A model generated the notes under the pieces. The model was not told the DNA's origin. It saw only the letters and a program-made list of their open reading frames with translations, and made no database searches. From Deroplatys truncata (lineage: Eukaryota; Arthropoda; Insecta; Mantodea; Mantidae): a DNA stretch of 64,000 nucleotides. The DNA lies in the NCBI GenBank assembly GCA_030765065.1, contig CM060979.1, positions 20,737,001-20,801,000 on the forward strand. The letters run 5' to 3'. A program made the position numbers and the translations under genes. Below are positions 5,486 through 53,884 of this stretch, piece after piece. Numbering within the stretch: position 1 is the first letter of the stretch; every line of letters starts with the position of its first letter.

Positions 5486-6395
5486 ACATATTATTGTTAC
5501 ATTCACATGGCTTTCTCTACCCTCTATCGTTTATTAGTGGATACACAAATTATTCCTACGAAAGCTTATTTATCTATCTACCTCATTTTAATCGAGATAA
5601 ACCTTTGCAGAAATAGCTAAATTACACGTTTGGTTACAGATACAAAGGGAACAGTGATTGTCAAATGTTTAAGAACTGGACGCTATAGCCTGGTCTTAAA
5701 ATCCCATACTGTTCCCATAAGATCGCGAGAAACAACTGAAAATCGACATGACTATAAAAGAATGATCAGGTATTGCACAATTCGCACCATAACTAAAGGA
5801 TGTTTCGAAAAGACCAATGCCACAAAAAAGTTATTTGAAATAAATTGTGGTTTTAAACAGATCTACACTAGTACGTTTTCGTCTATCGCTTAACGTTTAC
5901 CAGAGCGCCCATAAATAGAACGCAATTTAATTTAATTTTTAGCGTTTACCAGTTTTACAAGATTATACAAAATTCCTTCCGAATGTAGAGGACTTCACAG
6001 GTTATTCCCAGAAAATTCAAGATATACATTTTATTTGTCATGTAAATATCTTTAATATATTTTAATCAAAATTGTTAGAGCAATTTTTTTATAAAATCAA
6101 AAACTTTCAAAAATGTTTCATCTAAGGGTAGTTTATGATGGGAGGATTTCCTTGAAAAATCTTCGTGTCGCATCTTTTGAAGGTACTAAAAGTTTGGTAT
6201 TTATCCGACTTTTCGTTTTTGACTTAGGCTGTTCACAGACACACGTGGTATTTGGTTCTAAATGTGCTTTATTTGGGCTCCGGGTGCCATAAAACATGTA
6301 TTTTCGGTGAAATCTCGATATCGAATTTTTGAGTGGAATGCAATACTTTCTCAACGTACTATGTGTGTGGTAGAAAAAGTAAAAAGGTACGCGCG
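5486..6395 (+). mobile_element. Family A, subfamily A2, full-length copy
   Basis: It starts near TTGTTACATTCACATGGC with the A2-type CTTTCTCTACCCTCTATCG. It runs through the 'agcgatagtcaaatg'-like, 'gcgagaaacaactgaa' and 'gacttcacaggttattccc' blocks, has a worn microsatellite, and ends in GTGGTAGAAAAAGTAAAAAG. It is interrupted at 5904-5942 by a SINE stub with a target duplication. Confidence 0.85.
5904..5942 (+). repeat. 5'-truncated SINE B stub with 10-bp target duplication
   Basis: Only the family B tail is present (AGCGCCCATAAATAGAACG, then A/T-rich), about 39 bp. It lies between two exact copies of CGTTTACCAG (5894-5903 and 5943-5952), a sequence that occurs once in other A2 copies. This is a target-primed insertion cut short near its start. 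Confidence 0.8.
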
Positions 6396-8430: not shown

Positions 8431-8534
8431 ACAGGGAAGGTATTGCATTCCACCCAAAACTTCGATACCGAGATTTCACCGAAATACATGTTTTGAGGCC
8501 TCCTGAATTAAAAAAAGAGCATTTTTAGAAAAAA
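8431..8534 (-). mobile_element. Family A 3' end fragment, minus strand
   Basis: The sequence 'attccacccaaaacttcg' then 'gagatttcaccgaaatacat' is the reverse complement of the A 3' region. It is followed directly by the 5' end of a plus A1 copy. 8216-8430 holds nothing I recognise. Confidence 0.75.
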
Positions 8535-9396
8535 AATCAGATGTGTTACACTCACATGACTTTCTCTACTCCTGTACAAACTATTTTTACAAACGCTTGT
8601 TCTCCATATGCTTCATGTTAATCGAGATATCGAGATGTTAATCTTATTGCTAATATTCTTGTAGATGCAAGGGGAATGGGTAGGCTTTAAGCGATAGTCA
8701 AATATTTTAAGAGCTGGTTGCTATGTGGAGTATTCCATTTTCTTTGCATTACCAGGACAAAAAAAAAATGAATAACGAATTCCCATTTGAGAAAAAGTAT
8801 AAGTAATGGAAAATTTAAGGGAATAACAAGCAATATCTCGAAAATGGTTCACTCAAAAAAAAGTGTAATGACGTAAATTGTGTATTTTAACGCGATCTAC
8901 ATTTTTTGTGTACTAAAATTTTGTCTATCTCTTATGGTTTACCAGTTATGCAAAAGTCGTTCACAATGGAGAATACTTTTGGAGACATTCCCAGAAAATT
9001 CAAGATATACATTTCATTTGTCATGAAAATATCTTAAACATATGATATTTTAATCAAAATTGTTAGAGATATTTTTGAGAAAATTAAAATTTTCTAAAAA
9101 TGTTCCATGTAAAGGGTAATATGGAGTGGGAGTATTTTCTTGAAAACCTTCGTGTTGCATCTCTGGAAGATACTGAACCTAAATACCAAGTTTGGTGTTT
9201 ATCCGACTGATCGTTTCTGAGTTATGCTGTTCACAGACACACACACACACACACACACACGGACATGTTTCCAAAAATGCTTTTTTTTTGGATTCAGGGG
9301 GTCTCAAAACATGTATTTCCGGTGAAATCTCGGTATCGAATTTTTGGGTGGAATACAATACTTCCCCTACTTACTATACGTAGTAGAGAAAGTAAA
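8535..9396 (+). mobile_element. Family A, subfamily A1, full length
   Basis: 5' end 'atcagatgtgttacactcac', subterminal CTTTCTCTACTC (A1 form), the 'tttggagacattcccag' block, (CA)n at about 9238-9260, the 'ggtgaaatctcggtatcg' block, and the 3' end TACGTAGTAGAGAAAGTAAA. One of the best-kept copies and a good reference for the family. Confidence 0.9.
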
Positions 9397-10540: not shown

Positions 10541-11449
10541 AACAAAATAAAGGAATCGAGAAAAATGGGGTTTAAAGTTTAACACGGTGTTTTCCTAAAT
10601 GGTACACGACCACTTAAAGCCATTTTTGGCTTTAAAATTGTAGCTATTAAAAACGAATTGGTTGTATGAAAGTACAAATTGTAAGAAGTATAAAAAAATA
10701 ATTAAAAACTCGAGAATTTTCACTTTTTAAAGCAATTTTTACAGCTTGAGCGCAGCATAGCAAGCATAAAATTGTTGAAATTGTTGTACGTCGTAAAAGC
10801 TTAACGAGTGAGAGAAAAGTAACTGACCTATAAAGAGATTATTTTAAGTTAAAAGACCAAGGCTAATTCATGTCCAATAAGAAAAATTTCTCTCAATTTG
10901 CATTAAGAACACGTTTGCCAAAGTGGTACTAATTGCATCCACGGTTGTAATGTATTCCTCATTTTGAGATAATGTCGGGTACGGGATAGGAAGTAACTTT
11001 CATTTTCCCTACAGTGTACGCTTCCAAGTGGCAATTAATGAGCTAAAATAGCAGCTAAGTGGCTTTTCTTTTTTACAATATATAAGTGCTATTCACTTGT
11101 TGATGGCCGATCTGCTTCCGCGTGTCCTGAGTGAAACCGGCACGCAACATTGGGGATTCCACGATTCTCATATTATTTTATTTCATCTTTTGGGAGCGTT
11201 GTACATTGTTACTGGACATGTCATCATATATAAAATATTTACCACAGTTATAAACAATGGTTTAAATTAGTGATGGAACGATAGCACTATATCTCGATAC
11301 TCACTTTATAAGACACCACAAAGGCGATAGCGTCTTTACTGAATGACTTCTTATTAATGGTTTTCTGCGTATAAACGTCTGTAACCAGTTTTGTATTGTA
11401 TGCTAATTCCGAAACTATTCCTGTTTATCATTCTCCAATTGGCAGCATT
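10541..11449. other. No recognised feature
   Basis: AT-rich, no gene, RNA or repeat recognised on either strand. Confidence 0.35.
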
Positions 11450-12360
11450 TTTTACTTTCTCTACTGCGTATAGTAACTAGGGGAAGTATTGTATTCCACC
11501 CAAAAATTCGATACCGAGATTTCACCGGAAATACATGTTTTGAGACCCCCTGAATAAAAAAAAGCATTTTTGGAAACATGTCCGTGTGTCTGTCTGTGTG
11601 TCTGTCTGTGAACAGCATAATTCAGAAACGAACAGTCGGATAAACACCAAACTTGGTATTTAGGTTCAGTATCTTCCGAGGATGCGACACGAAGGTTTTC
11701 AAGAAAATCCCCCCACCCCATAGTACCCTTTACATGGAAGATTTTTCGAAAATTTTAATTTTCTCAAAAATGGCTCTAACGATTTTGATTAAAATATCAT
11801 ATGTTTAAGATATTTTTATGGCAAATAAAATGTATATCTGGAATTTCCTGGGAATGTCTCCAAAAGTATTCTTTATTGTGTACGACTTTTGCATAACTGG
11901 TAAACCATAAGAGATAGATAAAATTTTACTACACAAAAAATGTAGATCGCGTTAAAATACACAACTTATGTCATACTTTTTTTTTTGTTGAGTGAACCAT
12001 TTTAGAGATATTACTTGTTATTCCCTTAAAGTTTTCAATACTTATTTTCTCAAATGGGAATTCGTTATTCATTTTTTTTTTGTTTTGGATATGCAAAGAA
12101 TATTAATCTGTGGCAAAGGGAATGGTGCTGCACCTAGCAACCACCTAATAAGAGATATGTATGTGCTTAAAGGCTACTGTATTTCTGTATTGCCCCTGTA
12201 AATATATATTCCCCTTACATCTACAAGAAAATTAGCAATAAGATAGAGTCTGCAAATGTTTATCTCGATTAACATGAAGTAGATGGAGAATAAGCGTTTG
12301 TAAAAAAAGTTTGTACAAGAGTAGAGAAAGTCATGTGAGTGTAACACATCAGATTTTTTT
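11450..12360 (-). mobile_element. Family A, subfamily A1, full length, minus strand
   Basis: The plus strand reads TTTTACTTTCTCTACTGCG at the left (3' end of the element) and ACACATCAGATTTTTTT at the right (5' end). The (GT)-type microsatellite is at about 11580-11609. All internal A1 blocks are present in order. T runs at both ends fit insertion between T residues. Confidence 0.9.
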
Positions 12361-14080: not shown

Positions 14081-14351
14081 GTACAAACGAAATACCGACT
14101 TACCACTTGAAAATGTAAGTATTTGAAAATTCAAACCCTAACAGAGAATATCTCGGAAATGCTTAAGGCCACAAAAATATATTATTTTATATAAATTGTG
14201 TAATTTAATGAGTTCTACATTTTTACTTTCTCTACTACGTATAGTAAGTAGAGGAAGTATTGTATTCCACCCAAAAATTCGATACCGGGATTTCACCGGA
14301 AATATATGTTTTGTGACCCCCTGAATAAAAAAAAACATTTTTGGTAACATG

Positions 14352-14396
<45 letters not shown>

Positions 14397-15440
14397 ACAT
14401 AACTCAAAAACGAACAGTTGGATAAATACCAAGAAAATCCCCCTACCCCAGATTACCCTTTACATGGAAATTTTAATTTTCTCAAAAATGGCTCTAACGA
14501 TTTTGATTAAAATAGAGCATGTTTAAGATATTTTCATAACAAATAAAATGTATATCTTGAATTTTCTGGAAATGTCTCCAAAAGTATTCTTCATTGTGAA
14601 CGACTTTTGCATAACTGGTAAACCATAAGAGATAGACAAGAGTTTACTACACAAAAAATGTAGATCGCGTTAAAATACACAATTTATGCCATATACATTT
14701 TTGTTGTTGAGTGAACCTTTTTCGAGATATTGCTTGTTATTCCCTTAAATTTTCCAATACTTATACTTTTTCTCAAATCCGTTATTCATTTTTTTTGTCC
14801 TGGTAATGCAAAGAGAATGAAATACCCCACATAGCAACCAGCTCTTAAAAGATTTGACTATCGCTTAAAGCCTACCATATTCCCCTTGCATCTACAAGAA
14901 AATTAGCAATAAGATTGACATCTCGATTAACATGAAGCATATGGAGAATAAGCGTTTGTAAAAATAGTTTGTACAAGAGCAGAGAAAGTCATGTGAGTGT
15001 AATACATCAGATTTTTTTGTCTAGTAAGATTTTCTCTGCCTCTTTAAGATTTACTAATTATTACAAAAGCCATTCAGAATGAAGAGGACTTCACAGGCTA
15101 TCAACAGAAATTCAAGATACATATTTCATTTGTCATGCAAATATCTTAAAACAAATGGTATTTTAGTCGAAATCGTTAGAGCCATTTTTAGAAAATAAGA
15201 AGTAGCGAACATTTTCCCATGCAAAGGGTAGTTTGGGGTGGGGAATTTTCCTGACGTGTCGCATCCTTGAAAGACGTCCAACTTAAATATACAAATCCCT
15301 GCGCGCGAATCTATATCTAAAACTGCTTTTTTATTCAAGGGACTTCAAAGTGTGTATTTCCAGTGAAATCTCGGTATCGAATTTTTAGGTGGAATACAAT
15401 ACTTCCTCTACTTACTATAGGTAGGTAGTGGAGGAAGTAA
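14081..15440 (+). mobile_element. Family A2 copy split by an A1 insertion
   Basis: The left part ends at 'aatgagttctacattttt' (14221) and the right part resumes at 'gtctagtaagattttctctg' (15019), which are adjacent in intact A2 copies. The 3' end near 15440 is CTACTTACTATAGGTAGG and GGAGGAAGTAAAAA. The T|T junction shows the exact insertion point of the nested A1. Confidence 0.85.
14222..15018 (-). mobile_element. Family A1, minus strand, nested in A2
   Basis: Complete from TTTACTTTCTCTACTACG to ACATCAGATTTTTTT, with a (GT)n microsatellite at about 14353-14393. It sits in the T run of the A2 block 'ctacattttt|gtgtagta' with no clear target duplication, as expected for insertion between two T residues. 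Confidence 0.9.
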
Positions 15441-15964
15441 AAACGCTATAAAAACCTGGCAATACTCCATGTGCCTTTGGAAACATCGCTATAAATTAAA
15501 CATTACCTTTACTCTTATTTGCGAAACTATTTTGGTGTGATATATTGTTTGTTAAAAAGATAAAGAAAAAAATCACGATTTTAATGTATTGTGCTGTACA
15601 AGACGCCTGGTTATTGTTCCATTTACTGTCGCAGAGACACAGCGAAAAGGCTGATGGTACACAAATGGAAATAAATAAATTATCGCTGTCCTTCAAGCAA
15701 TGGACATGTCTGGCACGTTTAACTCCGTTTCTAGAAGGTCTTTCAAAACACGCATACGCATTTCAGCTCCTCCGTATAAGGCAACGTGCAAAAACAACAT
15801 AAAACCACTGTATTCCAATACTTTCCTGAAATTGCCACAAGACCGAGAGTTACTAGGTTAGTTGTCCTCTTTTTTCTTTAGTATCAAGGAATAACCTGCT
15901 TTGTTATGTTATCACAGATAATTCTACGGGAGAAGACGATTTTGCTGATAGATTCGCGAGTGTG
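15441..15964. other. No recognised feature
   Basis: Two overlapping frames (15496-15696 minus, 15545-15802 plus) carry no motif. No repeat recognised. Confidence 0.35.
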
Positions 15965-20789: not shown

Positions 20790-21530
20790 AAATCTGATAA
20801 TACATTCACATGACTTTCTCTACCCTCTATGGTTTATTGGTGGAAATACAAACTATTCTTACTAAAGCGTATTTGTCTATCTACTACATTTTATCCAAAT
20901 AAGCCTGTGCAGAAATAGCTTCATTACACATTTCGTTACAGATACAAAGAGAACAGCGATAGTCAAATGTTTAACAACTGGACGCTATATACTGGCCTTT
21001 AAATTCCGTACTGTTCCCATGACATCGCGACAAACAACTGAATGTTGAAGGGACTTTAAAAGCATGACCAATAAATGAACAATTCGAACCTTTTAATAAC
21101 GAATATTTCAGAAATGACTTATGCCACAAAAAAGTATTGAAAATGAATTGTATATTTGAAAGAGATCTACATTTTTGTGTAGTACGTTTTCGTCTATCGT
21201 ATTTTAATCAAAATCGTTAGCCATTATTTAGAAAATAAAGAATTTCGAAAGATGTTTCATGTAAAGGGTAATTTGGTACGAAGGGATTTTCTTGACAATT
21301 TTTGTGTCGCATCTTTGGAACGTACTGAACCTAAATACTAAGTTTGGTATTTATCCGACGTTTTGTTTCTGAGTTATGCTGTTTACAGACGCACACGCGG
21401 ACGTTTTTTCTAAAAAAAATGCTGTTAGAGGCCTCAAAACATGCATTTCCGTTGAAATCCCGGTATAAAAGTTTTGGGTGTAATGCAATACCTTCTCTAC
21501 CTACTATGTACGTGGTAGAGAAGGTAAAAA
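20790..21530 (+). mobile_element. Family A, subfamily A2, internally shortened
   Basis: 5' 'atctgataatacattcacat', A2-type CTTTCTCTACCCTCTATGG, a deletion from the 'tcgtctatcg' block to 'tattttaatcaaaatcgtta', a worn microsatellite, and 3' CTACCTACTATGTACGTGG then TAGAGAAGGTAAAAA. It keeps the A2 form of the terminal hairpin. Confidence 0.85.
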
Positions 21531-36679: not shown

Positions 36680-37470
36680 AAAATCTGATGTGTTACATTC
36701 ACATGACTTTCTCCACCCTCTATCGTTTATTAGTGGATATACAAACTGTTCTTAATAAACCGTATTTGTCTATCTACTACATTTTTATCCACACAAACCT
36801 TTGCAGAAACAGCTACATTACACATTTTGTTATAGATACAAAGAGAACAGCGATAGTCAAATGTTTAACAACTGGACGCTATATGCTAGCCTTAAAATTC
36901 CATACTGTTTCCATGACATCGCGAGAAACAACTGAGTGTTGAAAGGACTTTAAAAGAATGACCAAGAAATGAACAATTCGAACCATTAATAACGAATATC
37001 TCAGAAATGATTTATGTCATAAAAAGCGTATTGAAAATAGATTGTGCGTTTTAAAGAGCTGTACATCGTTTTCGCCTATCACAACGTTTATTAGTTATAG
37101 AAGATTGTATAGAATTCCTTCCGAATGAAAAGGACTTCAAATACTCTTCCCAGAAAATCCAAGATATACATTTTATTTGTGATGTTAATATCTTTAGTGT
37201 ATAGCATTTTAATCAAAATTGTTAGAGCCATTTTTAGAACACTAACATTTTCGAAAAATGTTCCATTTAAAGGGTTGTTCGGGTGGGGGTATTGTCTTGA
37301 AAATCTTCCTTTCGCACCTTGGAAGGTGCTAACTTATACACCAAGTTTCCAAAAACGCTTTGAATTCAGGGGCCACAAAACATGTATTTCCGGTGAAATC
37401 TGGGTATTGAATTTTTGGGTGGAATGCAATACCTTCTCTACCTTCTATGTACGTGGTAGAGAAAATAAAA
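36680..37470 (+). mobile_element. Family A, subfamily A2, full ends, microsatellite lost
   Basis: 5' ATCTGATGTGTTACATTCAC, CTTTCTCCACCCTCTATCG, all A2 blocks in order, then a deletion that removes the microsatellite ('caccaagtttccaaaaacgc'), and 3' CTACCTTCTATGTACGTGG then TAGAGAAAATAAAA. Confidence 0.85.
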
Positions 37471-37555
37471 GGTGCTGCGCAGCGTAATTTCAATAATATT
37501 TTTAAACTATTTAGAATTAACGTACCATTTAGATCACCCCTTGAATAACCCGTCG

Positions 37556-42789: not shown

Positions 42790-43075
42790 GTAAGACTGCC
42801 TCTCTAGTGCAGTGATCAGCGTTCTAGCTTCTCAACCAAGAGGTCTCGGGTTCGATTCCTGGCTGGGGCAGGGAATTAATCTTTAACAACAATCATCCCT
42901 TATCTCCCACAGGGCCTGTAAGTATGAATACGGGAGTGAATGTGTGTGTTTCATAGTTAAAACTCATAAACGTTCAGTGAACAATAACACCAGCTGTTTA
43001 TCAAGTCAAGCCTCCTATATGAACAAAGAAGCTAAAGGAGGCTACACAAATGGAACAATAAAACAAATATATATT
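42790..43075 (+). repeat. tRNA-derived SINE, family G
   Basis: A box region CTCTAGTGCAGTGATCAGCG and B box GGTCTCGGGTTCGATTCC about 35 bp apart, then the body 'cttatctcccacagggcctg', 'gtgaatgtgtgtgtttcata' and a tail 'aacaataaaacaaata'. A worn relative lies at 19008. Confidence 0.8.
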
Positions 43076-44375: not shown

Positions 44376-44612
44376 AAACTATTTTTAAAAATATGAAGTG
44401 TTACATTCACATGACTTTCTCTACCCTCTATTATTTATTAGTGAATATACAAATTGTTCTTACGAAAGCTAATATTTCTATCTACTTCATTTTAATCTAA
44501 ACAAAGCTTTGTAACAATAGCTAAGTTACACATTTCGTTATAGATCAAAAGAGAACAGTGACAGTCAAATGTTTAAGAAGTGGACGCTATATGCTGGCCT
44601 TAAAATTATTTT

Positions 44613-45500
44613 TTACTTTCTCTACTACGTATAGCAAGTAGGGGAAGTATTGTATTCCACCCAAAAATTCGATACCGAGATTTCACCGGAAATACATGTT
44701 TTGAGACCCCCTGAATCCAAAAAAGCATTTTTGGAAACATGTCCGTGTGTCCGTTTGTAAACAGCATAACTCAGAAACGAACAGTCGGATAAACACCAAA
44801 CTTGGTATTTAGGTTCAGTATCTTCCAGAGATGCGACACGAAGGTTTTCAAGAAAATCCCCCCACCCCGGATTACCCTTTACATGGAAGATTTTTCGAAA
44901 ATTTTAATTTTCTCAAAATGGCTCTAACGATTTTGATTAAAATATCATATGTTTAAGATATTTTTATGACAAATGAAATGTATATCTCGAATTTTCTGGG
45001 AATGTCTCCAAAAGTATTCTTCATTGTGAACGACTTTTGCATAACTGGTAAACCATAAGAGATAGACAAAAGTTTACTACACAAAAAATGTAGATTGCGT
45101 TAAAATACACAATTTATGGCATATACATTTTTTTTTGTTGAGGGAACCATTTTCGACATATTGCTTGTTATTCCCTTAAATTTTTCAATACTTTTCTCAA
45201 ATGGGAATTCGTTATTCATTTTTTTGTCTTGGATATGCAAAGAGCATTAATCTGTGGCAAAGGGAATGGTGCTGCACCTAGCAACCAGCTATTAAGAGAT
45301 ATGTATGTGCTTAAAGGCTACTGTTTTTCTATATTGCCCTTGTAAATATATATTCCCCTTACATCTACAAGAAAATTAGCAATAAGATAGAGTCTGCAAA
45401 TGTTTATCTCGATTAACATGAAGTAGATGGAGAATAAGCGTTTGTAAAAATAGTTTGTACAAGAGTAGAGAAAGTCACGTGAGTGTAACACATCAGATTT
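44613..45500 (-). mobile_element. Family A1, full length, minus strand, nested
   Basis: TTTTACTTTCTCTACTACG at the left and 'gtaacacatcagatttt' at the right; all A1 blocks in order. The microsatellite is reduced to GTCCGTGTGTCCG near 44741. A good reference copy. Confidence 0.9.
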
Positions 45501-48856: not shown

Positions 48857-48957
48857 CATCCTTGGAATATACTGAACTTAAATACCACATTTGGTATTTA
48901 TCCGACTTTTCGTTTTTCAGTTATGCCGTTCACACGCACGAACCTTTTTCTAAAAAT

Positions 48958-49770
48958 CGCGTGACTTTCTCTACTCTTGTACAAACTATTTTTACAAACG
49001 CTTATTCTCCATATGCTTCATGTTTATCGAGATGTTAATCTTATTGCTAATTTTCTTGTAGATGCAAGGGGAATATGGTAGGCTTTAAGCAATAGTCAAA
49101 TATGTTAAGAGCTGGTTGCTATGTGGAGTATTCCATTCTCTTTGCATTACCAGGACAAAAAAAAATTATTAATTCCTATTTGTGAAAAAGTATAAGTATC
49201 GGAAAATTTATGGGAATAACAAGCAATATCTCGAAAATGGCTCACTCAACAACAAAAAATGTATGTGACATAAATTGTGTATTTTAACGCGATCTACATT
49301 TTTTGTGTAGTAAAGTTTTGTCTATCTCTTATGGTTTACCAGTTATGCAAAAGTCATTCACAACGAAGAATACTTTTGAAGACATTCCCAGAAAATTCGA
49401 GATATACAATTCATTTGCCATAAAAATGTCTGAAACTTATAGTATTTTATTCAAAATCGTTAGCCATTTTTGAGAAAATTAAAATTTTCGAAAAATGTTC
49501 CATGTAAAGGGTAATCTGGGGTGGGAGGATTTTCTTTAAAACCTTTGTGTCGCATCTCTAGAAGATGCTGAACCTAAATACCAAGTTTGGTGTTTATCCG
49601 ACTGTTCGTTTCTGAGTTATGCTGTTCACACACACGGACATGTTTCCAAAAATGCTTTTTTTGGATTCAGGGTATCTCAAAACATGTATTTCCGGTGAAA
49701 TCTCGGTATCGAATTTTTGGGTGGAATACAATACTTCCCCTACTTACTATACGTAGTAGAGAAAGTAAAA
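48958..49770 (+). mobile_element. Family A1, first unit of a tandem run
   Basis: Starts at GTGACTTTCTCTACTCTTG, lacking the outermost 5' 25 bp. All A1 blocks are present, microsatellite reduced to CACACACGGACATG (49626), 3' end TACGTAGTAGAGAAAGTAAA. Its 3' end is followed at once by a second A1 unit. Confidence 0.85.
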
Positions 49771-50398
49771 ATATGAATTCCTATTTGAGAAAAAGTATAA
49801 GTATCGGACAATTTATGGGAATAACAAGCAATATCTCGAAAATGACTCGCTCAAAAAAAATGTATTTGACATAAATTGTGTATTTTAACGTGATCTACAT
49901 TTTTTGTGTAGTAAAATTTTGTGTATCGCTTATGGTTTACCAGTTATGCAAAAGTCATTCACAATGAAGAATACTTTTGGAGACATTCCCAGAAATCTCG
50001 AGATATACAATTCATTTGCCATAAAAATGTCTGAAACTTATTGTATTTTATTCAAAACCGATGGAGCCATTTTTAAGAAAATTAAAATTTTCGAAAAATG
50101 TCCCATGTAAAGGGTAATCTGGGGTGGGGGATTTTCTTGAAAACCGTTGTGTCGAATCTCTAGAAGATGCTGAACCTAAATACCAAGTTTGGTGTTTATC
50201 CGACTGTTCGTTTCCGAGTTATGCTGTTCACAGGCGCGCGCGCGCACACACACACACGCGCGCGGACATGTTTCCAAAAATGCTTTTTTTGGATTCAGGG
50301 GGCCTCAAAACATATATTTTCGGTGAAATATCGGTATCGAATTTTTGGGTGGAATACAATACTTTCCCTACTTGCTATACATGGTAGAGAAAGTAAAA
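49771..50398 (+). mobile_element. Family A1, second tandem unit, 5'-truncated
   Basis: Begins inside A1 ('gaattcctatttgagaaaaa') and runs to a complete 3' end. It shares private variants with the previous unit ('atgtctgaaacttat', 'gaagatgctgaacc'), so it arose by local duplication of about 600 bp. Microsatellite mixed CG/CA at about 50232-50266. Confidence 0.85.
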
Positions 50399-51153
50399 AT
50401 GTTTTTTTTTTTATTCACGTATATTTCCGGTGAAATCTCCGTATAGAATTTTTGGGTGCAATACAATATACCAGCGGTTCCCAAACTGTGGGTCGCGACC
50501 CTCAAGAGGGCCGCGGAATACTACCTGGGATGGTCGCAGTGGATATTTGGAATTATTAATAAATCATTTTTATTGTTAATTATTATTTTAACAATGGGGA
50601 AAATGGAATTTAGTCGCCTATTACGTATTACATTTAAACTGAATCATGTTTTGTATTTAAGAAGCATATTAATACTACAATTTCACAGTAAATGCACATG
50701 TACAATTTTATTTAAACCATTAATTATTACACTGCACATTAAGGATGATAAGTATGAGCCTGTTTGCTATTAATTAATCGTTCAATGTCTGGCTGTATAT
50801 TAGTCACACACATTATCTATTCCTAGATTTACTCTTGAAGTTCATCATTGACGAAAATCCAGTTTCGCAGAGATATGAGGTGAATAAGCACATTTAGTGT
50901 GGCAGACACCAGGGTATCCTGTTCTTCTTGCTGGCCAGAACTGATACACATCTACCTTCTGGAACTTTGGTCTGAAGAAAGCTCAATTAATTTATCCTTT
51001 AATTTCAAAACTTGCAAATTAATGATTAAACAGCGAAGTGAATGGAGGGGTCGCCAATAATTTCATTATCGAAAAGGGGGACGTGTGCGCAAGAAGTTTA
51101 GGAACCGTTGCAACATACAATACTTCCCCTACTTACGATACGTAGTAGAGAAA
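50399..51153 (+). mobile_element. Family A1, third tandem unit (3' end only), split by hAT
   Basis: 50399-50471 ('attcacgtatatttccggtg', 'tttttgggtgcaatacaata') and 51111-51153 ('acatacaatacttcccctac', CGTAGTAGAGAAAGTAA) are contiguous in intact copies. The hAT element lies between. Confidence 0.8.
50472..51110 (-). mobile_element. hAT element (Charlie/ZBED-type), internally deleted
   Basis: Ends CAGCGGTTCCCAAACTGTGG and, inverted, CAACGGTTCCTAAACTTC. 8-bp target duplication CAATATAC/CAACATAC (one mismatch) at 50464-50471 and 51111-51118. The minus strand keeps a transposase C-terminal fragment near 50745-50880 (a SSMMNFKSKSRNR-like stretch, then TNIQPDIERLINSKQA), as in ZBED5-like hAT proteins. 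639 bp, not autonomous. Confidence 0.9.
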
Positions 51154-52665: not shown

Positions 52666-53070
52666 AATAATAATAATATTTAATCGTAATTTAACTATTA
52701 CAAAGTAACAGACATCATCGTTATCACATTCTAAAACACTAGATCATCTGGATTTGTCTCTTCACACCTCTTAATAATATAAATTGTTTTAGTTTTTAAC
52801 CAGTGTTTAAGTACTTTAGTAGGTCTATTTGAGATCACATTACTTGCATTTTTATTAAACCACTTAATTCCCATATGTTTAAAGCTATTCTGAATTTTAC
52901 TCAGTCTGACAAAAGCAAGATCTAAATTATGTTTATTTCTTGTTTCGTATTGTGGACATCTGATCTAGAATTAAAAGTATGTTTAACATACTCCAGTACC
53001 TGTAATATAAAAAGACTAGTCAACGTCATAATATTTAAATGAAGTGTGGTTTACAAGATTCTGTGCTTTT
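52666..53070. other. No recognised feature
   Basis: AT-rich. It may hold the downstream part of the LINE that the A1 copy at 53071 separates from the fragment at 53885, but no motif is readable. Confidence 0.3.
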
Positions 53071-53884
53071 TTACTTTCTCTACTATGTATAGTAAGTAGG
53101 GGAAGTATTGTATTCCACCCAAAAATTTGATACCGAGATTTCACCGGAAATATATATTTTGAGACCCCCTGAATCCAAAAAAAGCATTTTTGGAAACATG
53201 TCCGTGTGTGTGTGAACAGCATAACTCAGAAACGAACATTCAGATAAACACCAAACTTGGTATTTAGGTTCAGTATCTTCCAGAGATGTGACACGAAGGT
53301 TATCAAGAAAATCCCCCCACCCCAGATTACCCTTTACATGGAACACTTTTCAAAAATGGCTCTAACGATTTTTATTAAAATATCATATGTTTTAATATAT
53401 TTTCATGACAAATGAAATGTATATCTCTAATTTTCTGGGAATGTCTGCAAAAGTATTCTTCATTGTGAACGACTTTTGCACAACTGGTAAACCATAAGAG
53501 ATAGACAAAATTTTACTACACAAAAATTGTAGATCGCGTTAAAATACACAATTTATGTCATATACATTTTTTTTTTTTTTATTGAGTGAAGCATTTTCGA
53601 GATATTGCTTGTTATTCCCTTAAATTTTCCAATACTTTTTCTCAAATGGGAATTCGTCATTCTTTTTTTTTTTTTTACGTACTGGACATGCAAAGAGACT
53701 GGAATGCGCCACTAGCAACCAGCTCTTAAAAGATTTGACTGTCGCTTAAACTCTACCACATTCCCCTTGCACCTAGAAGAAAATTAACAGTAAGATTAAC
53801 ATGAAGCATATGGAGAATAATCGTTTTTAAAAATAGTTTGTACAAGAGTAGAGAAAGTCATGTGAGTGTAACACATCAGATTTT
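53071..53884 (-). mobile_element. Family A1, full length, minus strand
   Basis: TTTACTTTCTCTACTATG at the left and 'gtaacacatcagattttt' at the right; all A1 blocks. It lies directly at the end of a LINE reverse transcriptase fragment read on the same strand. Confidence 0.9.

Follow-up and report, generated by a model that had tools for sequence, protein, structure and literature searches.

Non-autonomous Helentrons (HINEs) are the closest described relatives of the repeat family analysed here. In passages of Thomas et al. 2014 (PMC4067079), HINEs are described as inserting within a T-run without target modification, and the mite families as having a subterminal repeat of 12-15 bp, with the 3' repeat 38-60 nt from the end. 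DINE-1 is described there as carrying an inverted repeat with its 5' side inside the 5' subterminal repeat, and compensatory change in its 3' stem was already proposed in the relevant sections of Yang and Barbash 2008 (PMC2374699). Within these portions of the two papers (PMC2374699, PMC4067079), the layout, the nested 5' inverted repeat, insertion into T-runs and the type of partner element are thus described for DINE-1 and Helentrons. Useful additions of the present analysis are the identification of a partner with both ends, the correction of the orientation, and a genome-wide control that traces most of the covariation to founder history. To our knowledge, the terminal features required by a Helentron are largely untested. 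A genome that has both a very abundant HINE (more than 180,000 exact 5'-end matches, tandem arrays included) and an open-frame Rep-helicase partner offers a good opportunity to test which of them are needed.

The focal copy, an A1 copy of family A, occupies positions 8535-9396 of the window, the whole 64,000-nucleotide stretch of DNA that was analysed. An earlier note on this DNA had assigned to A1 copies a 5' repeat, a five-base 3' hairpin and a 3' repeat. The letters are present in the focal copy as quoted, with CTCTACT inside CTTTCTCTACT at 8560-8570, CTACT-TACTATACGT-AGTAG at 9367-9386 and AGTAGAGAAAG at 9382-9392, all read directly on the forward strand. The hairpin is longer, however: all 11 nt of the repeat take part, forming nine Watson-Crick and two G.T pairs with CTTCCCCTACT (9361-9371). 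Moreover, the element had been taken backwards. Its true orientation is the minus strand, as given by the direction of the partner's open frame and by the 3' stem-loop, and the supposed 3' hairpin is an inverted repeat at the 5' end, with its 5' side nested in the 5' subterminal repeat as in DINE-1; the end formerly called 5' is the 3' end. Oriented from Rep-domain copies that share both ends, the focal copy has its 5' end at about 9398 and its 3' end at about 8530.

Read on the minus strand, a T-tract and a single A lead into the 5' subterminal repeat CTTTCTCTACT (9382-9392), which is also the first arm of the 5' hairpin. The 10-nt loop (9372-9381) is ACGTATAGTA, typical of A1, while A2 copies typically have ACGTACATAGTA; the 3' arm of the hairpin, AGTAGGGGAAG (9361-9371), follows. 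Further along are a microsatellite, (TG)n or (CA)n according to strand (9234-9260), and an internal T-tract (8759-8768), which is uninterrupted here and carries a further insertion in other copies. The 3' part consists of the 3' subterminal repeat AGTAGAGAAAG (8560-8570, formerly taken for the 5' repeat), TC, the stem-loop ATGTG-AGTGTAA-CACAT (8541-8557) and a CAGA-type end with its T-tract; this terminus (8528-8540) is of the CAGATTTTT type and reads CTGATTTT in the focal copy, with a T-run at the end. The 5' repeat thus lies at most 6 nt from the 5' end and the 3' repeat is internal, about 27 nt from the 3' end, which is the arrangement of subterminal inverted repeats by which HINEs are recognised.

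As DNA, the 5' hairpin has a predicted fold energy of -5.7 kcal/mol in A1 and -8.8 kcal/mol in A2. Compared with dinucleotide shuffles these values correspond to z = -3.9 and -5.6, and 0 of 200 shuffles were as good for either type. The 3' stem-loop ATGTG-N7-CACAT is kept in A1, A2 and Rep-domain copies. Its sequence is conserved and its predicted energy is weak (z = -1.1 and -0.75, with 33 and 55 of 200 shuffles as good).

Family A is interpreted, with a probability of roughly 0.92, as a non-autonomous Helentron (HINE, DINE-1-like) that is mobilised in trans by another Helentron resident in this genome, which encodes a Rep domain, a helicase of the PIF1 type and, probably, an endonuclease at the C-terminus. 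It resembles the HINEs and Helentrons described in the consulted parts of PMC4067079 in its subterminal inverted repeats, 5' near the end and 3' internal, in a putative 3' palindrome, in T-rich insertion without target modification, in having a Rep-helicase partner, probably with an endonuclease, that carries the same ends, and in that non-autonomous copies outnumber autonomous ones. In family A the repeat is shorter (10-11 bp) than in the mite families described there and the 3' repeat lies closer to the end (about 27 nt); the partner's two repeats match over 10 bp only. It also resembles Drosophila DINE-1 / INE-1, as presented in the corresponding parts of PMC2374699: both insert into TT, contain a microsatellite and carry a second inverted repeat that is complementary to the 5' subterminal one. 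The stem-loop that DINE-1 has beyond its 3' repeat has a putative counterpart in family A. The repeat is different in D. melanogaster (ATACCCGTTACTC), and the microsatellite is GTCY in DINE-1 but CA/TG in family A. Drosophila DINE-1 is further marked by a conserved core of about 90 bp. The second repeat is described as partial in that account, whereas the family A hairpin spans the whole 5' repeat.

The partner was found by searching the 4.29-Gb assembly (818 contigs) with the Pfam model Helitron_like_N. At least 152 genome matches were obtained, a lower bound as 150 of 291 candidates were scored, and among the matches listed 18 were in open frames of at least 2,000 aa. One 2,441-aa open frame, the one copy tested, was scanned in two parts and matched Helitron_like_N (PF14214) with 100 bits and PIF1 (PF05970) with 101.5 bits. 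C-terminal of the helicase, Exo_endo_phos_2 (PF14529) matched with 23.9 bits (E = 4e-5), below its curated cut-off of 27.4. The order of domains is Herpes_teg_N near the N-terminus, DUF6570, Helitron_like_N, PIF1 and the C-terminal endonuclease (below cut-off). HEH and TYIIKYISK can be read in the translation, and we take these to be the Rep motifs. The N-terminal part of this frame (L039+L040) matched Herpes_teg_N with 38.9 bits and has a long run of 21-residue K/R/E-rich repeats ahead of DUF6570 and the Rep domain.

Two Rep-domain copies were followed to both ends. In these, homology stops at GTAGAGAAAG-TTATGTGAATGTAACACAT-CAGATTTT, the CTTTCTCTACT hairpin lies upstream and the frame between them reads in that direction. 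The same 3' end was present in 19 of 20 sampled Rep-domain copies, in stretches located by their expected distance from the Rep domain, and absent from the stretch examined for the remaining one (L106). For 14 copies the upstream 1.2 kb was inspected, and some of these stretches hold two 5' ends; 12 contain the A1-type 5' hairpin, and in the other two (L125 and L129) no 5' end was seen. Both ends of family A are therefore common to a Rep-encoding element of the same genome. No A2-type end was seen among the 14 Rep-domain copies with a visible 5' end (12 + 2), which is weak evidence as the copies were sampled by Rep score. In the 20 copies of the 3'-end sample, open frames ranged from 428 to 2,416 aa, and several of these copies are for this reason probably dead.

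Comparison of empty and filled paralogous sites demonstrated that insertion is within a T-run, without duplication beyond the Ts. Empty sites, for example TTATTCA-TTTTTTT-ATGTCC, have an uninterrupted T-run, while at filled sites TTATTCA-TTTT is followed by ACTTTC at the 5' junction and CAGATTTT by TTTTATGTCC (Ts, then ATGTCC) at the 3' junction. This comparison also bears on a cut-and-paste transposon with terminal inverted repeats, or a MITE, the case that the earlier note had named as fatal to its view if a fixed target duplication accompanied it. CTTTCTCTACT and AGTAGAGAAAG do form an inverted repeat, as such an element would have. Nevertheless, the two repeats are asymmetric and subterminal (at most 6 nt as against about 27 nt from the ends), the site has no fixed duplication and the open-frame partner is a Rep-helicase. 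A terminal-inverted-repeat transposon was rejected on the asymmetric ends and the empty-site comparison, and we consider this reading extremely improbable. The Helentron-associated, DINE-1-like assignment made earlier holds up, given Rep-domain copies with the same two ends and T-run insertion. Shared ends, T-run sites and anatomy point indirectly to mobilisation of family A by the Helentron.

After CAGATTTT, 10 of the 19 Rep-domain copies run into mutually unlike flanks, and for the other 9 the flank is a GTCCTGG-type site within a further HINE copy. These nine (L103, L104, L114-L119 and L122) sit in the T-tract of a GTCCTGG-type (or GTCTTGG) site internal to the HINE, so its own relatives are a frequent target of the element. 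Around the L041+L042 copy, 5' ends lie 685 and 646 bp apart and 3' ends 224 and 222 bp apart, spacings that are explained by repeated insertion in the same orientation into the internal T-tract. In L124, L131, L132, L135, L136, L039+L040 and L041+L042 there are two 5' ends, with an identical inner junction (AATGCGTTATTCATT) and mostly different outer flanks, while the Rep-domain copies L126 and L127 seem to begin at the inner-type 5' end, with flanks of their own. Judged from these junctions, both nested 5' ends look usable.

A DNA search with the focal copy returned the copy itself and at least 39 other places at 89-93% identity, at least 30 of which cover query bases 7-861 or more; 40 of 5,003 candidates were scored, so these figures are lower bounds. 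In the window, A1 copies lie on the plus strand, opposite to the focal copy, at 11449-12355, and also on that strand at 14220-15013, 44610-45499 and 53068-53882. Two further A1 copies at 48957-50399 (minus strand) are probably nested, with a second 5' end at 49771 after the first approximately 630 bp of the copy that starts at 50399. Three A2 copies lie on the minus strand. The one at 20790-21530 has a perfect 11-bp 5' hairpin (CCTTCTCTACC / GGTAGAGAAGG) and the 3' repeat GGTAGAGAAAG, and it bears out the letters earlier given for A2: CTCTACC, CTACC..GGTAG and GGTAGAG. The other two depart from them. At 5486-6385 the hairpin arm has decayed (CTTTTTCTACC / CGTTGAGAAAG), reading CAACG and not CTACC, and the hairpin is broken. 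At 36680-37471 the hairpin is TTTTCTCTACC / GGTAGAGAAGG, and the 3' repeat GGTGGAGAAAG, then called the 5' repeat, has CTCCACC and not CTCTACC. CCTATA-type loops with perfect or longer stems occur at the 5' ends at window position 15443 (minus strand) and in L077 and L078, and perhaps represent an older form of the hairpin.

The stems of A1 and A2 differ at pairs 2, 4, 6 and 11, and all four remain standard pairs. The differences at pairs 2, 4 and 6 are A/G changes opposite an unchanged T, and the change is two-sided at pair 11 only. For pair 11, formed by the last base of the 5' repeat and its partner, exact genome-wide counts were T-A 183,690, C-G 7,435, C-A 3,163 and T-G 2,572, whereas the pattern read backwards gave 0 matches in each class. 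A strong association of T-A and C-G, as anticipated when genome-wide covariation was suggested as a check, is thus present, but the copies behind it belong to two lineages whose loops differ. Among copies with the A1 loop, the counts were T-A 135,461, C-A 1,348, T-G 1,066 and C-G 21, compared with 10.6 C-G copies expected under independent decay in this loop class (1348 x 1066 / 135461). In 11 of the 21 the rest of the arm is A1-like (GGTAGGG), and in 10 it is GGTAGAG, either a variant of A1 or A2-like. All 21 together are twice the expected number, while the 11 with A1-like arms are at expectation; there is no clear excess of compensated copies.

The whole stem gave a similar result. Standard pairs made up 88.9% of the total, compared with 86.8% when arms were shuffled across all rows, and one of 5000 shuffles reached the observed value. 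Within the lineages, pairing was no better than shuffled: 3638 of 5000 shuffles reached the observed value for A1-like rows (22 rows) and 1209 of 5000 for A2-like rows (16 rows). The 5' ends in this set were not chosen by stem sequence; L001, a duplicate of the focal copy, was excluded, as were the 5' ends that had determined the choice of L043-L082. The 63 rows, less four without arms, left 59 with both arms and 38 distinct after identical rows were merged, with relatedness uncorrected.

With A1-loop double changes near chance and within-lineage pairing no better than shuffled, the paired difference between A1 and A2 is read as mostly a single founder or lineage difference inherited by many copies, between two old lineages with different loops. 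Concerted change, as claimed in the earlier note, is real between A1 and A2 and across the genome but absent within each lineage and within the A1 loop class. Its further step, of reading selection directly from the covariation, does not survive: there is one lineage split, no clear excess of compensated copies and no within-lineage signal. The case carries a warning, in that a huge transposon copy number makes one founder change look like thousands of covarying pairs, and the within-lineage count of double mutants is the control that tells founder history from covariation. Both arms of the A1 hairpin change independently after insertion and at similar rates, and on this ground copies appear to be neutral once inserted.

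A candidate third lineage at pair 4 (CTTCC..GGAAG) was rejected: of its 57 genome matches, 25 have the exact A1 loop and many others are close to it, and they were treated as decayed A1 copies. At pair 11 no A-T or G-C lineage was apparent among 62 scattered genome matches to a pattern that includes mismatched letter pairs.

In the few source copies, constraint may act on hairpin pairing and not on the 3' repeat; A1 and A2 would then be set apart by one ancient compensatory substitution, at pair 11, and by three wobble-compatible changes. The four stem differences that all stay standard pairs are consistent with this, as are the window copies at 15443 and 21530, in which 11 of 11 stem pairs are Watson-Crick, and the Rep-domain copies, which retain the hairpin though their 3' repeat differs at that base. 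Nevertheless, three of the four changes keep pairing automatically, pair 11, alone in being two-sided, represents a single event, and among A1-loop copies the C-A mismatch is at least as frequent (1,348) as the G.T intermediate (1,066). We put the chance that source copies are constrained in this way at slightly under even.

The earlier note had gone further and proposed that the 5' repeat, the hairpin arm and the 3' repeat covary under selection, so that all three must match at the variable base. A1 and A2 do differ in concert, with T-A (183,690) and C-G (7,435) exceeding C-A (3,163) and T-G (2,572), and the third site follows lineage to a considerable extent. The 3' base is A in 25 of 25 A1-like rows with a linked 3' end, a set that includes L001 (the focal copy again) and in which some rows share a 3' end. 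It is G in the three A2 copies of the window. Copies of the other classes were hand-picked from the first 100 places listed per class, all on contig C1, and the C-G picks were made first for varied loops and then for A2-like loops, with L052 (35 bases) left out. In 39 such C-G copies of the 7,435, a 3' end was detectable in 21, with G in 14, A in five and no clear base in two; the other 18 had no 3' end. The five with A are L060-L062, which are closely similar and lie within about 61 kb, and L058 and L097, in which A1-type ends are further away. Five of the 13 T..G copies had a 3' end, with G in L068, L071 and L082, A in L070 and no clear base in L069. Among the seven C..A copies, three had a 3' end. 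Two of these, L079 and L080, belong to the 25 A1-like rows and have a 5' base decayed to C and A as the 3' base; L075 is ambiguous and was excluded from the count, its first 3' letter being C when adjacent and G in a gapped alignment.

The Rep-domain copies break the three-way rule. Their 3' repeat is TGTAGAGAAAG (once TGCAGAGAAAG) and begins with T in 19 of 19; the 5' base was seen in 12 copies and is likewise T in all of them. A 3' T thus stands opposite a 5' T, and the two repeats agree over 10 bp only. L060-L062 and L070, in which a non-A1 hairpin occurs together with an A1-type 3' end, also count against the rule; these may be recombinant elements. In addition, the A1-loop C-G count (21 against 10.6), a stem signal confined to comparison across lineages (1 of 5000) and the lack of an apparent A-T or G-C lineage all argue against it. 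If the 3' base were random, it would agree in at least two of three lineages with a probability of about 0.16, which makes such chance agreement unremarkable. The third site tracks lineage with exceptions, and for this site the rule is largely refuted; selection on all three sites together is quite unlikely.

As to how the ends work, the Helentron protein may recognise each of them by a 10-bp core, CTTTCTCTAC / GTAGAGAAAG. Where the transferred strand begins, the 5' hairpin would offer the 5' site in the form of folded single-stranded DNA that could be nicked or used in strand transfer; the 3' stem-loop or T-tract would mark the end of that strand, and integration would be into TT. A tentative extension, which we hold to be rather doubtful, is that the two 11-nt repeats are read differently, the 5' repeat as a folded hairpin with every pair constrained and the 3' repeat as a linear 10-bp site with a free eleventh base. 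If true, this would explain why the source lineages (A1 and A2) keep hairpin pairing whereas A, G and T all occur as the 3' base, and also why the Helentron can apparently start from either of two nested 5' ends.

Some minor observations were made. An Rfam scan of the window gave a single match, a tRNA-like one at 42798-42870 (29.8 bits, gathering score 29). Near the start of contig C1 (G000 C1:19716-121974), 31 successive A1-type 5' ends, about 3,408 bp apart and in one orientation, form a large tandem repeat containing the HINE 5' end. Short tandem repeats of HINE 5' ends, each comprising the hairpin and about 90 bp, are present at L046:579-1068 and L065:693-1068 and also in L064 and L067. 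The repeat units are 123 bp (4.0 copies) and 119 bp (3.2 copies) long, and several units have broken stem pairs.
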